Assembly (NCBI GenBank): GCA_030149525.1 | Contig: JASBRJ010000005.1 | Location: forward strand, 1 to 33,251 | DNA from: a bacterium | GTDB lineage: Bacteria; Vulcanimicrobiota; Xenobia; Xenobiales; JADMJV01 | DNA: 33,251 nucleotides | Reading direction: 5' to 3' | Shown: positions 26,099 to 31,249 of the stretch, one piece after another | Position numbering within the stretch: position 1 is the first letter of the stretch | How the letters are laid out: the number at the start of each line of letters is the position of its first letter | Translations under genes and position numbers: made by a program | The notes under the pieces: generated by a model | Told to the model about the DNA's origin: nothing | Database searches by the model: none | Seen by the model: only the letters and a program-made list of their open reading frames with translations

Positions 26099-28700
26099 AG
26101 ACCTGGAAGCCAACTGGAAAGAACAGTGGAAGAAAGACGAAGTCTACAAATGGGACCCCACCGTGGGCCGCGAGAACACCTTTGTGGTGGACAGCCCTCC
26201 TCCCACCGTTTCCGGCTCCCTCCACATCGGTCACGTCTTTAGTTACACCCACCAGGACTTGCTGGCCCGCTATCAGCGAATGAAGGGCAAAAACATCTGT
26301 TACCCCATGGGTTGGGACGACAACGGTCTCCCCACCGAGCGGCGGGTGCAGAATCTCTTTCGAGTGAAGTGCGACCCCAACGTCCCTTACGACCCCAACT
26401 TCAAGCCGGAGCGTCGTAAAAAAGGCGACGTTCAGGAGATTAGCCGCCAAAACTTTATCGAAGCGTGTGCCACCGTCACCGAAGAAGACGAAGCTGCCTT
26501 TGAAGACCTCTGGCGCACTCTCGGTCTCTCTATCGATTGGGACTTGCAATACGCCACCATCGATGAGCATTGTCGAAAGATCAGTCAGACCTCGTTCTTG
26601 GAGATGGTGGAGAAAGGTCTCGCCTACTCCATGGAAGCTCCCACCATGTGGGATGTGGACTTTCAGACCGCGGTTGCCCAAGCCGAAGTTGAAGACAAAA
26701 TGCGCCCGGGCAAATTCCACGATATCCGATTCACCATTGAAGGTGGCGGAGACTTCGTGATAAGCACCACCCGACCGGAGCTTTTGCCCGCCTGTATCGC
26801 CGTGGTCGCTCACCCCGAAGACGAACGGTACAAGCCCCTCTTCGGCAAACACGCGATTACGCCACTCTTTGACGCCAAAGTGCCGATCATGGCCTCCGAG
26901 CACGCCGATCCCGAGAAGGGAACCGGTATTCTTATGGTCTGTACCTTCGGTGACAGCGCCGACGTGGATTTCTGGAAACACTCAGGACTTCCCATCAAAC
27001 AGGTGATCGGACGCAACGGCACCATGCTCGAAGTAAAGTTCGGCGAAGGCAACTTTACCTCAGAGAATCCGGCGAAGGCTCAGAAAAACTACGACGAATT
27101 GGTCGGTTTGCCCACCAAAAAAGCCAAGGCCCGCGTGGCCGAGCTTCTGGCTGCCGAGACTCTCCCCGACGGCTCCTGCCCCCTGGTCTCTGAACCTCGG
27201 GAGATCGAGCACCCCGTTAAGTTTTATGAAAAAGGCGAGCGTCCGCTTGAGTTCGTGCCTACACGCCAGTGGTTCGTTCGTCTCTTGGAGAACAGGGATA
27301 AGCTTCGGGAACAAGGCTCAAAAATCAAGTGGCATCCACCTTTTATGGAAACCCGTTACCAGCACTGGGTGGACGGATTGAATCTCGACTGGTGTATCTC
27401 CCGTCAGCGCTACTTCGGTGTGCCGTTCCCCGTTTGGTACCCTCTTGATGCTCAGGGAGAGTGCAAATTTGATGAACCGATTTTTGCCACCGCCGATCAG
27501 CTTCCCATAGACCCCATGTCGTCGGTTCCTCCGGGATACACCGAAGAACAACGTGGAAAGCCCAACGGCTTCCGCGGCGACCCCGATGTGATGGACACCT
27601 GGGCCACTTCTTCTTTGACCCCTCAGATCATCAGTCACTGGAGTCAGGACAAAGAGCGCCACGAGAAGCTTTTCCCCTTCGACATTAGACCTCAGTCTCA
27701 CGAGATTATTCGAACCTGGGCCTTCTACACGATTGTGAAAGCCTGGATTCACAACAACGACATCCCCTGGAAACATGTTGTGATCAGCGGTTGGATCCTA
27801 GACCCAGATCGCAAGAAGATGAGTAAATCTGTGGGCAACGTGGTGACACCTCACCACCTGCTGGAAGAATACTCCTCCGACGGCGTTCGTTACTGGGCGT
27901 CGCGGGCTCGACTGGGCGCCGACACCGCTTTCGACGAGGGCGTTCTGAAGATCGGGAAAAAGCTCACCACCAAGCTCTTCAACGCCAGCCGATTTGTGCT
28001 CTCTCAGTTGGAGCGGGTAGACGCCGACATCGACAGCCTCACTCCGGATCTCATCACCGAGCAGACGGATTTGGATTTCTTCAACAGTCTGGTGAAGACG
28101 GCTACCGACGCTGGCGCGGCTTTTGAGAAGTTCAACTACGCGGCGGCCCTTGAGATGTCGGAGAAGCATTTCTGGGACTTCTGTAACGACTACCTGGAGT
28201 TAGTGAAAAAGCGTTCTTATGAAGATGAGGACACTTCCGGGCGTCGCTCGGCGCTTGCCACCTTGAACCAATCGTTGAAGATGTTCCTGAGACTGTTTGC
28301 CCCGTTCTTGCCTTTCATCACCGAGGAGATCTGGTCGTGGCGCTACGCCAAGGCGGAAGGTCGCGACGGCTCTGTTCACCGAGCAGCTTGGCCCACCGCT
28401 GAGGAATACTCGGCACTTGGTGCTGTTGGAGTGAACGGTTGCTATGCCGCAGGTGTTGAGGTGCTGACCAAGATCCGTTCGGCTAAAACTGAGGGGAAAG
28501 TGAACTTGAGATGGCCCATCGAGTCCCTCAAGGTGACGGGCTCTGCCGAGTCTCTGTCGGCTCTCAAGGCCGCTATCGAGGATGTCATCGGTGCCGGAAG
28601 CGTGAACCCCGACGGTATTGAGTACTCGGAAGGCAAACCTGAAGGCAACGATCTGTTCAGCGTCGAGGCAACTCTGGGAGTCGAACAGCCGGCCGGATAA
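26067..28700 (+). CDS. valS: Valyl-tRNA synthetase, type 2
   Basis: The 877-residue class I synthetase has the HIGH motif (53-56) in PPPTVSGSLHIGH and KMSKS (584-588) in DRKKMSKSVGNV. It charges tRNA-Val and edits mischarged threonine through the inserted CP1 domain (about 195-360). GWDDNGLPTERRVQN identifies the archaeal-type ValS also present in actinobacteria and Rickettsia (HAMAP type 2), rather than the E. coli type 1. It lacks a clear C-terminal coiled-coil extension. ATG 26067 sits inside the end of the transglutaminase gene, 32 bp before its stop. An alternative start further in would remove conserved KDLEANW residues. The upstream ribosome-binding site is weak, so coupling to the preceding gene may matter. 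Confidence 0.97.
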   Translation: MKEIPKKYKHKDLEANWKEQWKKDEVYKWDPTVGRENTFVVDSPPPTVSGSLHIGHVFSYTHQDLLARYQRMKGKNICYPMGWDDNGLPTERRVQNLFRVKCDPNVPYDPNFKPERRKKGDVQEISRQNFIEACATVTEEDEAAFEDLWRTLGLSIDWDLQYATIDEHCRKISQTSFLEMVEKGLAYSMEAPTMWDVDFQTAVAQAEVEDKMRPGKFHDIRFTIEGGGDFVISTTRPELLPACIAVVAHPEDERYKPLFGKHAITPLFDAKVPIMASEHADPEKGTGILMVCTFGDSADVDFWKHSGLPIKQVIGRNGTMLEVKFGEGNFTSENPAKAQKNYDELVGLPTKKAKARVAELLAAETLPDGSCPLVSEPREIEHPVKFYEKGERPLEFVPTRQWFVRLLENRDKLREQGSKIKWHPPFMETRYQHWVDGLNLDWCISRQRYFGVPFPVWYPLDAQGECKFDEPIFATADQLPIDPMSSVPPGYTEEQRGKPNGFRGDPDVMDTWATSSLTPQIISHWSQDKERHEKLFPFDIRPQSHEIIRTWAFYTIVKAWIHNNDIPWKHVVISGWILDPDRKKMSKSVGNVVTPHHLLEEYSSDGVRYWASRARLGADTAFDEGVLKIGKKLTTKLFNASRFVLSQLERVDADIDSLTPDLITEQTDLDFFNSLVKTATDAGAAFEKFNYAAALEMSEKHFWDFCNDYLELVKKRSYEDEDTSGRRSALATLNQSLKMFLRLFAPFLPFITEEIWSWRYAKAEGRDGSVHRAAWPTAEEYSALGAVGVNGCYAAGVEVLTKIRSAKTEGKVNLRWPIESLKVTGSAESLSALKAAIEDVIGAGSVNPDGIEYSEGKPEGNDLFSVEATLGVEQPAG

Positions 28701-28732
28701 TCTGAGAAACGATTTCCCGAAAGGAACAGAGG

Positions 28733-28990
28733 ATGGCTAAAGCTACCAACTACAGGAGCATTACCATCCTCTGTTCTTCTTGTTTGCAGAAGCTGTATCT
28801 CTACCGTAAGGGCGGCAGCGGGTCCTTAGTTAAATGCATCCCCGACCGCATCCTCAAAGACTACACCAAGGGTGATCTCTGCTGTCCTCAGTGCGGGCAA
28901 AGCTTTGCTCGGGAAGTGTCTATGGGTGGGCGGGTAGTTTATAAGATTGTGGGCGGTAAGGTCATTACTAAGGGGATGCGGCGGAAGTGA
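28733..28990 (+). CDS. Small zinc-ribbon protein, 85 aa
   Basis: The 85-residue product has two cysteine knuckles, CSSC (14-17) and CPQC (51-54), with an extra Cys at 35 and 50. The spacing of the CxxC pairs fits a zinc ribbon. The remainder is basic and Gly-rich, ending in KITKGMRRK-like residues. An AAAGGAACAGAGG lies just before ATG 28733. It follows valS by 32 bp on the same strand, so it is probably co-transcribed. A role in RNA or ribosome biology can be guessed from the context and from zinc ribbons in general, but nothing specific is shown. Its stop is followed by about 30 bp to the end of the opposite-strand zinc-ribbon ORF. Confidence 0.78.
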   Translation: MAKATNYRSITILCSSCLQKLYLYRKGGSGSLVKCIPDRILKDYTKGDLCCPQCGQSFAREVSMGGRVVYKIVGGKVITKGMRRK

Positions 28991-29021
28991 TGGTCGTTTT
29001 GCCGGGCACGCCTGTGAAAGC

Positions 29022-29309
29022 TCAGCCCCGATTCCATACTCGAATTCCGCAACTCATACACATCCTTTTGCCGTCCTGGGAATCGGACGATGAGCGCCAT
29101 CCTGCCCCTGCACATTGACCACACTGCACCGAACCTTCAGGTGGAGCAGGCAGCATCTGCAGGAGGTCCAGACAGTTCTGTCCGGCTCATGCCTTGACGA
29201 AGCTATGCAGTTCGCCCTCGTCGGCGAAATGAACTTGTTCTCCCTCGACCAGGCCCGTCGGGTCGATGATCAGGCTTCCATCGAGAGTCAAGAGTGCCGT
29301 CGACCCCAT
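29022..29309 (-). pseudogene. ORF split by an in-frame TGA, with C-terminal zinc ribbon
   Basis: On the minus strand one reading frame runs from ATG 29309. It gives 40 residues (MGSTALLTLDGSLIIDPTGL, then VEGEQVHFADEGELHSFVKA) to TGA 29189-29187. It continues in the same frame for 54 more residues to TGA 29024-29022. That second part has CGQC and CMSC, a zinc-ribbon pattern, with GAGWRSSSDSQDGKR between. Codon use across the split looks like a real gene. It may be a nonsense-mutated pseudogene, two separate tiny genes, or a recoded (selenocysteine or readthrough) gene. A hairpin lies at 29168-29185, just after the TGA. The frame also follows the upstream 157-residue gene's TAA. Apart from this ORF the 343-bp gap holds nothing I can support. 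Confidence 0.4.
29168..29185 (-). repeat. Hairpin directly downstream of the in-frame TGA
   Basis: Minus-strand CCGGACAGAACTGTCTGG begins 2 bases after the TGA (29189-29187). It can pair as a 7-bp stem (one G:T pair) with a GAAC loop. The loop sits only about 9-12 nt after the TGA, nearer than the ~16-37 nt typical of bacterial SECIS elements, so it does not meet the usual selenocysteine rule. Confidence 0.5.
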
Positions 29310-29333
29310 ACCTGGCCACAAAACGACAGTCGG

Positions 29334-29807
29334 TTAGTCTACATGCCCGGGACTCCACTCTTTAAAAATCCGATCTCGAAACTCACTGGGCATCCGCAAC
29401 CGGGGCAACTTCGCTCGCTCCTCCCGCCTTTTTTTCTGGAGCAAGACCCTTCTCTCAAAGTAACCACAAACCACGAACCGAACAAACAGCGGTATCAACA
29501 CCAGTAACACCACAAGAAACCAGGGTATGTCTTCAAAGGAAACGACGCAGGCGTGGAATCGGTTCAGAGTATAGATCGTGAAGGGCGCACATCCGAGGAC
29601 CACAGCAAAGCTGATTCTAGACAGGAATCGGAAAGCTCTTTCACCATCACGAACTTGCAGAAAGCAAAACGAAAGCCACTGGAGCGCTACCCCGCCGAAA
29701 GTTAACAGATAGAGCCAACGACTCGAACGACCTAGCATTATTGTGAGACAATACAACTGGACAAGAAATAACAGACCGATCCCACCAACTTGTAAACGAT
29801 GTCTCAC
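29334..29807 (-). CDS. Small polytopic membrane protein, 157 aa
   Basis: No family recognised. The product has about four hydrophobic segments (about 8-26, 31-50, 66-82, 94-113), then a basic cytoplasmic tail (about 117-157, with KKRREERAKLPRLR) and an end reading EWSPGHVD. The start is GTG 29807. An in-frame TAG lies 18 nt before it, so the GTG is the first credible start, with a weak ribosome-binding site. It follows the DASS transporter on the same strand by 38 bp and may be co-transcribed with it. A link to anion transport is only positional. Confidence 0.65.
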   Translation of the reverse strand: MRHRLQVGGIGLLFLVQLYCLTIMLGRSSRWLYLLTFGGVALQWLSFCFLQVRDGERAFRFLSRISFAVVLGCAPFTIYTLNRFHACVVSFEDIPWFLVVLLVLIPLFVRFVVCGYFERRVLLQKKRREERAKLPRLRMPSEFRDRIFKEWSPGHVD

Positions 29808-29845
29808 ACCAGAGCTTATTCCCTAGTGCCCAGAGTTCGGTCATT

Positions 29846-31249
29846 TTACCAATACCCCAGCAACCTCCACCAAAGCCCGCCTACACCCAGCCAGATAACC
29901 ACGTTGACCACACTGACCACCCATCCCACTCTCCACCAGCGCCCGGTGGGCAGGAAACCGGCACCGAAGAAGATGGGGGCAGCACCGCAACCGTAATGCG
30001 TGCAACCCGAGAAGAGATTGCTGAAGTACCCCAGGACCAGGGCTGACACCAGCGGCGGAGCCCCCACGGCGATGGCCACTCCGAGAAAAGGCGCATACAT
30101 GGAACTGACATGGGCTGTGTTACTGGCAAAGAGATAGTGGCTGTAAAAGTAGATCAGGGTCAATCCGATAAAGGCCGGGAACCAGTGAAATCCACCCAAC
30201 TGCCGCCCCATGGTCTCACTGAACCAGGGTATGAAACCGAGCTTATTGAGAAAGCTTGCCATCATCACCAGAGCGGCGAACCAGACCAGGGTATTCCAGG
30301 CCTCCTTTTCCTGACAAACGTCCTGCCAGGTGAGAACTCCAGTAACCAGGAGAAGGCTCAAGCCCACAAGGGCGGTTGTGGTGGAGTGAAAGGCCAACTG
30401 CTTTCCGAACATCCAAAGACAGAGCATGAGACAAAACACCACCAACATGATTTTCTCAACCCGAGTCATAGCCCCCATGTCTTTGAGTTTCTGGCGAGCC
30501 ATCTCGGCCGCATCCGGGGTCTTGGTGATAGCCGGTGGACACAGTTTGTAGAGTAAGAGAGGAACGAGAACAAGACTCACGAGTCCCGGCAACGCTGCTC
30601 CCACCGCCCAGGTGGTCCAGCTGATCTCTACTCCCAGGTCTCGGGCCAGTTGGGCAGCTAGCGGATTGGCCGCCATAGCGGTCAGAAACATGGCGCTCGT
30701 GATCAGATTGCCCTGAAAGGCGGTCTTCAGAATGAAAGCTCCTACCGAATCGTCGGAATCCTTATCTTTATAGATGTCTCTGAGAGAAAGGGCGATGGGA
30801 TAGATCACTCCGCCTGCCCGGGCAGTGTTGCTCGGAATAGCTGGAGCTAGCACGAGATCGGTGGCTAACAGACCGTAACTCAATCCCAACGTACTTTTGC
30901 CCACTCGAGACACAAAAAGATAGGCGATTCGAGAACTGAGACCGGTCTTGATAAAACCCCGGGCGATCATAAAGGAGGTGACAATGAGCCAGATGACTTT
31001 GTTGCCGAAGCCGAAGAGGGCCTGTTCGATGGTGAGGGTATGGGTGACCACCGAGGCCACCACGCCGAGAAGGGCCACAGCCCCCATGGGAAGTGGGGCG
31101 GCGATGATTCCAACGATAGTGGAAACAAAGACGACGAGGAGATGCCAGGCTTGCTGGGTCACTCCAACAGGTGGCGTCTGCCACCACAACAGCAACCCCA
31201 ATATCAGGGGGGAAAGAACCCGTATCCAATGTCCCCGACCAGCCCGCAT
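29846..31249 (-). CDS. DASS-family anion:Na+ symporter (CitT/DiT1-like)
   Basis: The 467-residue polytopic membrane protein belongs to the divalent anion:Na+ symporter (SLC13/DASS) family. Both substrate-binding SNT motifs are present: SNT 140-142 (LAPAIPSNTARAGGVIYP) and SNT 376-378 (LFASNTAHVSSMYAPF). Length and about 12 hydrophobic segments match the CitT/2-oxoglutarate-malate translocator branch. Members carry dicarboxylates or citrate, either by Na+ symport or by exchange. The substrate cannot be read from sequence. ATG 31249 has GAGG 2 nt before it, which is short. The next gene on the strand starts 38 bp later, and the secreted 123-residue gene ends 52 bp before. Confidence 0.92.
   Translation of the reverse strand: MRAGRGHWIRVLSPLILGLLLWWQTPPVGVTQQAWHLLVVFVSTIVGIIAAPLPMGAVALLGVVASVVTHTLTIEQALFGFGNKVIWLIVTSFMIARGFIKTGLSSRIAYLFVSRVGKSTLGLSYGLLATDLVLAPAIPSNTARAGGVIYPIALSLRDIYKDKDSDDSVGAFILKTAFQGNLITSAMFLTAMAANPLAAQLARDLGVEISWTTWAVGAALPGLVSLVLVPLLLYKLCPPAITKTPDAAEMARQKLKDMGAMTRVEKIMLVVFCLMLCLWMFGKQLAFHSTTTALVGLSLLLVTGVLTWQDVCQEKEAWNTLVWFAALVMMASFLNKLGFIPWFSETMGRQLGGFHWFPAFIGLTLIYFYSHYLFASNTAHVSSMYAPFLGVAIAVGAPPLVSALVLGYFSNLFSGCTHYGCGAAPIFFGAGFLPTGRWWRVGWVVSVVNVVIWLGVGGLWWRLLGYW

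Follow-up and report, generated by a model that had tools for sequence, protein, structure and literature searches.

Does an in-frame TGA with a hairpin directly behind it, in a short frame that ends in a putative zinc ribbon, mark a selenocysteine codon, some other kind of readthrough, or simply a broken gene? The question is raised by a small open reading frame on the minus strand of the window, by which we mean the whole 33,251-nucleotide stretch of DNA analysed here. It comes from a draft bacterial genome of 8.27 Mb in 398 contigs (G000 below). The initial annotation described the frame as 40 codons, a TGA, 54 codons and a stop, with the motifs CGQC and CMSC located solely 3' of the first TGA. 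The translation bears out both statements: the frame runs from 29309 to 29022, its first TGA is at 29189-29187 and its terminal TGA at 29024-29022. Our preferred reading, which we consider probable, is gene decay: a member of a small family broken by a nonsense mutation. The features of the locus are as follows.

29190..29309, minus strand: first half, 40 codons from the ATG at 29309 to the TGA; by translation and profile alignment, the putative beta part and helix start of the family domain
29187..29189, minus strand: in-frame TGA, read as a nonsense codon; by its alignment column, at a variable helix position of the domain
29022..29186, minus strand: second half, 54 codons plus the terminal TGA; LP-x-x-P motif and predicted zinc ribbon (CGQC/CMSC), without the family's Gly-Trp end
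29168..29185, minus strand: hairpin with a 7-bp stem; its loop, GAAC, is separated from the TGA by 8 nt
29334..29807, minus strand: upstream hydrophobic ORF, 157 amino acids, with its TAA in the same frame as the broken ORF

Coding signal of the interrupted frame

Within the frame, 3' of the first TGA, an ATG at 29156 is a possible second start, and on the plus strand an 85 amino acid ORF has its end facing the broken frame. TGA terminates 5 of the 19 neighbouring long ORFs and is thus an ordinary stop codon here. A six-frame scan of the window gives one instance of the paired-cysteine pattern itself (C..C x(8-25) C..C, uninterrupted by a stop), and 60 simulated windows give 0.37 on average, so that the motif alone could be due to chance.

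Both halves had been credited with a codon bias like that of their neighbours. By the all-codon score this fails for the second half, and synonymous codons distinguish neither half. The first half scores 0.18, equal to the gene median (0.18) and therefore gene-like, while its antisense frame, at 0.21, scores somewhat above the frame itself. The second half scores -0.08, lower than 95% of real gene pieces (5th percentile 0.076) and close to the wrong-frame median (-0.09). With synonymous codons only, the scores are 0.009 for the first half and -0.018 for the second, both unremarkable, and the first half's antisense frame (0.103) lies above the sense frame. The absent codon bias at first suggested that the second half was a chance ORF, a reading that was overturned by homology.

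An uncatalogued family with a predicted zinc ribbon

The read-through frame was searched in 57 relatives and in its own genome, which gave weak rows only. We aligned 13 loci from this first search and judged a single one to be real by eye. It belongs to G002, a genome of the same family of bacteria as the window genome, and shares the pattern LPA-PEG-V-C--C-G-G with the read-through frame. When the G002 protein was searched back, its sole match in the window genome at E 0.05 was the broken frame, in an alignment that spans the TGA (E 0.001). Over 66 residues, the G002 protein shares 67% identity with a second relative, from G001 of the same bacterial family. Among 149 genomes of the phylum (the window genome included), matches were found in G001 and G002, plus one weak row in G064. 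A further relative came from a search in the genomes of ValS loci, which covered 28 of 42 such loci; it lies in G162, whose named record (L061) is a Myxococcales MAG. In the phylum of G162, 11 of 377 genomes have matches.

We built a profile from 11 relatives (9 of the 11 matches in the G162 phylum, together with G002 and G001), with the window sequence excluded. Two loci were dropped before alignment columns were counted, L133 with two TGA codons in its match and L138, a weak match inside a 954 amino acid frame; L111 and L112 were also left out of the set of relatives. The members (loci L006, L090, L128-L132 and L134-L137) come from two phyla. They consist of a short beta/helix domain and, behind it, a zinc ribbon, with the motifs LPxRP, CxxCxGxG and CxCxGLGW, and the cysteines suggest that this tail binds zinc.

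Against this profile, the read-through frame of the window aligns as a single domain that crosses the TGA, from VVLWPG to CGIRVWN (model positions 38-132 of 139). It scores 26.4 bits (E 2e-9 in a search of the window's six frames); among 186 frames that were reversed or shuffled, the highest score is 5.1 bits. This score is carried almost wholly by the second half, which alone reaches 26.2 bits, a value equalled by 0 of 500 shuffles; the first half alone, extended by the 8 codons before the ATG, reaches 2.9 bits, equalled by 1 of 500. The local alignment of the second half with the G002 relative scores 77, which none of 2000 shuffles (mean 26.6) equals. Compared singly with the two nearest relatives, the first half is non-significant, 892 and 207 of 2000 shuffles being as good. 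Some MAFFT alignments place the first half poorly, and for it the profile alignment was used instead. Judged from the sequences, the second half surely belongs to the LPxRP zinc-ribbon family, and the first half probably does.

The window copy resembles the family in its single domain alignment across the TGA, in both of its cysteine pairs and in LP-x-x-P. It differs in three respects. Ten of the 11 relatives are open over domain and ribbon, the exception being G001, which ends just before the ribbon; the window copy is interrupted by the TGA. All 10 relatives with a ribbon end it with Gly-Trp, whereas the window has CGIRVW; its putative metal-binding ribbon keeps both cysteine pairs and lacks the Gly-Trp end. 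Finally, it lacks the N-terminal part of the family (37 model positions, before a conserved lpLy segment), to which no minus-strand frame upstream gave a match.

The 157 amino acid ORF lies immediately upstream. Its codon bias is weak, and it and the broken gene make up a region of poor coding signal, flanked by a sodium:sulfate symporter gene and a gene that we take, by eye, to be valS-like. No match to it was found at E 0.01 in 18 other genomes. The idea that this ORF and its TAA were part of the same ancestral gene was rejected, since the N-terminal profile is blind to the ORF: its last 45 residues rank 166 among the 301 rows listed, of which at least 299 are shuffles. Its similarity to the two nearest relatives is likewise no better than that of shuffles. 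We see no sign, at the level of sequence, that this ORF supplies the N-terminal segment that the window copy lacks.

The family is uncatalogued: nine members, all of them among the 11 relatives of the profile, were scanned, and no Pfam or NCBIfam model scored above threshold. The nine members gave no match at E 0.1 against NCBIfam and PADLOC. Two known domains come near. The DnaJ central domain (PF00684) shares the CxxCxGxG spacing of the first knuckle, but it matches weakly (E 0.085) in only one of the nine members scanned, and the family is not a member of it. The GATA zinc finger (PF00320) weakly matches the second half of the window frame (E 0.036, 14.1 bits), but its curated cut-off, 26.8 bits, is far above this score and the relatives have no such match. 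The best match among solved structures has an E-value of 0.073. Plasmids and phages gave no match, the 12 records listed by one search all having E-values of 2 or more, and a pattern search of genome contigs for the read-through frame returned 235 pattern matches, none of them a relative. A single-sequence fold had a mean pLDDT of 43.6 and was left unused.

The hairpin and the selenocysteine machinery

The 7-bp-stem hairpin reported behind the TGA is indeed there, at 29185-29168 of the minus strand with the loop GAAC. Its folding energy is -9.7 kcal/mol, which is equalled by 1 of 200 shuffles of the 25 nt. Among the window's 1080 TGA triplets, counted on the two strands, 6 have an equally strong or stronger fold within 22 nt, the TGA of the broken ORF included, so that short hairpins of this strength right behind a TGA are uncommon. 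Over 40 nt, 8% of the window's TGA triplets have a fold as strong, so at that length it is ordinary. With up to 4 mismatches allowed, the inverted repeat was found in the window solely at this place. An Rfam search of 28700-29900 gave no match up to E 1. The hairpin is most likely a chance feature.

As described in PMC13188914, the bSECIS model places the loop 16-37 nt from the UGA "for most" elements, and some elements depart from the model; the other constraints are a loop of 3-9 nt, a stem of 4-16 bp, a G in the first two loop positions and a minimum free energy of -7.5 kcal/mol or lower. The window hairpin agrees with every one of these constraints except spacing, its loop being 8 nt from the UGA. 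Alternative simple hairpins behind the window TGA that lie within the allowed spacing reach -3.0 at best.

The initial annotation had doubted a classical selenocysteine codon because of this spacing, and had proposed a search of the genome for selA, selB and tRNA-Sec. All three are present in G000. The selA and selB genes (489 and 329 bits, both over the cut-off) lie side by side on contig C390. Two tRNA-Sec loci score 73 and 53 bits, over the family cut-off, and both are typed as tRNA-SeC with anticodon tca; they are at G000:C119:9251-9340 and G000:C223:1600-1687, where one such gene per genome is usual; the second may stem from duplication, divergence or mixed binning. A selD gene with an in-frame TGA completes the set:

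G000:C390:15997-17025, minus strand: selD with an in-frame TGA, motif CAG-U-ASK, beside selA and selB (loci L086 and L113)

We therefore rejected the idea that the machinery is absent, and no argument against selenocysteine can be drawn from that side.

The selD gene also gives a local measure of spacing. Its TGA is found in G000, G002, G003, G004 and G005, and G001 has Cys (relative loci L116, L117, L119, L120 and L121); the selD genes of G017 and G018, with one TGA each, did not conform to the pattern used for the hairpin comparison, which covers the others. The most stable hairpin behind the selD TGA has a 7-nt loop that starts with G, 13 nt after the UGA. Read by eye, its stem varies on both sides between species (AGAUCC/GGAUCU, AGGUCC/GGACCU, AAGUCC/GGACUU). 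The same stem is present in G001, whose selD has Cys, and it may thus follow from the protein sequence; selD also has a weaker hairpin (-6.1 kcal/mol) inside the allowed range. It is possible, tentatively, that the selD SECIS elements of this bacterial family have a spacing under the published 16-37 nt. The doubt about classical selenocysteine was right. The spacing argument behind it is weaker than it seemed, since the loop of selD's own most stable hairpin also falls short of the published range and the machinery is present; the window's 8 nt are shorter still.

What decides the matter is the relatives. Comparison at the TGA, also proposed at the outset, gives a sense codon in all 11 relatives used (Arg in 4, Gln in 4, Glu, Trp and Leu in 1 each) and Cys in none, with hmmalign and MAFFT in agreement. 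According to PMC13188914, nearly all selenoproteins have Cys homologues, and one selenoprotein discovery study (PMC1088965) made it a requirement that over half of the homologues carry Cys. The lack of Cys in the 11 relatives, set beside this usual pattern, is our main argument against selenocysteine. Like the bacterial bSECIS selenoproteins, of which selD on C390 is the example here, the locus combines an in-frame UGA with a hairpin whose loop opens with G, in a genome that has the machinery; unlike them, it has no Cys among its relatives and a loop closer to the UGA than that of selD or of the published elements. In this case an in-frame UGA, a hairpin and full selenocysteine machinery, taken together, are no pointer to a selenoprotein once homologues have been found.

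Probable decay of the gene and the alternatives

A sense codon in every relative is what the initial annotation had named as the sign of a simple mutation, and the nonsense mutation that it listed as one option is borne out as the best reading. The frame would be a decaying gene for a short beta/helix domain plus a zinc ribbon. The nonsense codon would have arisen at a variable helix position ahead of the ribbon, so that only a short, ribbonless product is possible. Given the absent N-terminal part and Gly-Trp end, the gene was probably under little constraint already. That the mutation is "recent", as had been proposed, is doubtful, since the gene shows these other signs of decay, among which the absent codon bias of the second half may be counted. 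Against decay, the four ribbon cysteines are all kept, the first half has a gene-like all-codon score, the profile score comes almost wholly from the second half, and the copy is known from one genome. With a copy in a single genome and scarce matches in the phylum, decay is unmeasurable by substitution ratios. On the decay reading, no function would be left in the gene; a ribbonless product need not be useless, since the G001 relative itself ends before the ribbon. One broken gene is of little weight in itself.

It is unlikely that the TGA reflects a miscalled base or a fault of assembly in a gene that is intact save for a shortened N-terminus. One wrong base would suffice in this one draft genome of 398 contigs, and the complete set of ribbon cysteines would be as expected; but a single wrong base would not account for the absent N-terminal part, the loss of Gly-Trp or the flat codon bias seen in the second half, and we infer a real mutation rather than an error. 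The 54 open codons past the TGA would also suit programmed or leaky readthrough by a route other than selenocysteine, or a pair of small proteins translated separately, with the ATG at 29156 as the start of the second; the small contribution of the first half to the profile score and the ribbonless G001 protein point the same way. We hold this to be quite improbable. The domain alignment crosses the TGA and takes in residues before that ATG, and domain and ribbon form one frame in the other 10 of the 11 relatives. Of the two forms in which it had been proposed, programmed readthrough is without support, and two small genes are disfavoured by the one domain alignment across the TGA, albeit with little score from the first half alone.

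That the UGA encodes selenocysteine, the hairpin serving as a compact SECIS, is highly improbable. The case for it consists of selA, selB, two tRNA-Sec genes and a TGA-bearing selD in the genome, the closeness of selD's most stable hairpin to its UGA (just 13 nt), and a window loop that begins with G in a fold below -7.5 kcal/mol, two of the constraints given in PMC13188914. Against it stand the 11 relatives without Cys, where nearly all selenoproteins have Cys homologues (PMC13188914), a spacing outside 16-37 nt and below that of selD, and the finding of no second copy with a TGA at that point in the 149 genomes of the phylum. A variant that we regard as barely credible is that the compact hairpin allows partial selenocysteine readthrough where relatives have Arg or Gln. 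If true, this would be a selenoprotein arisen without a Cys ancestor, in a lineage whose selD element seems unusually close to its UGA.
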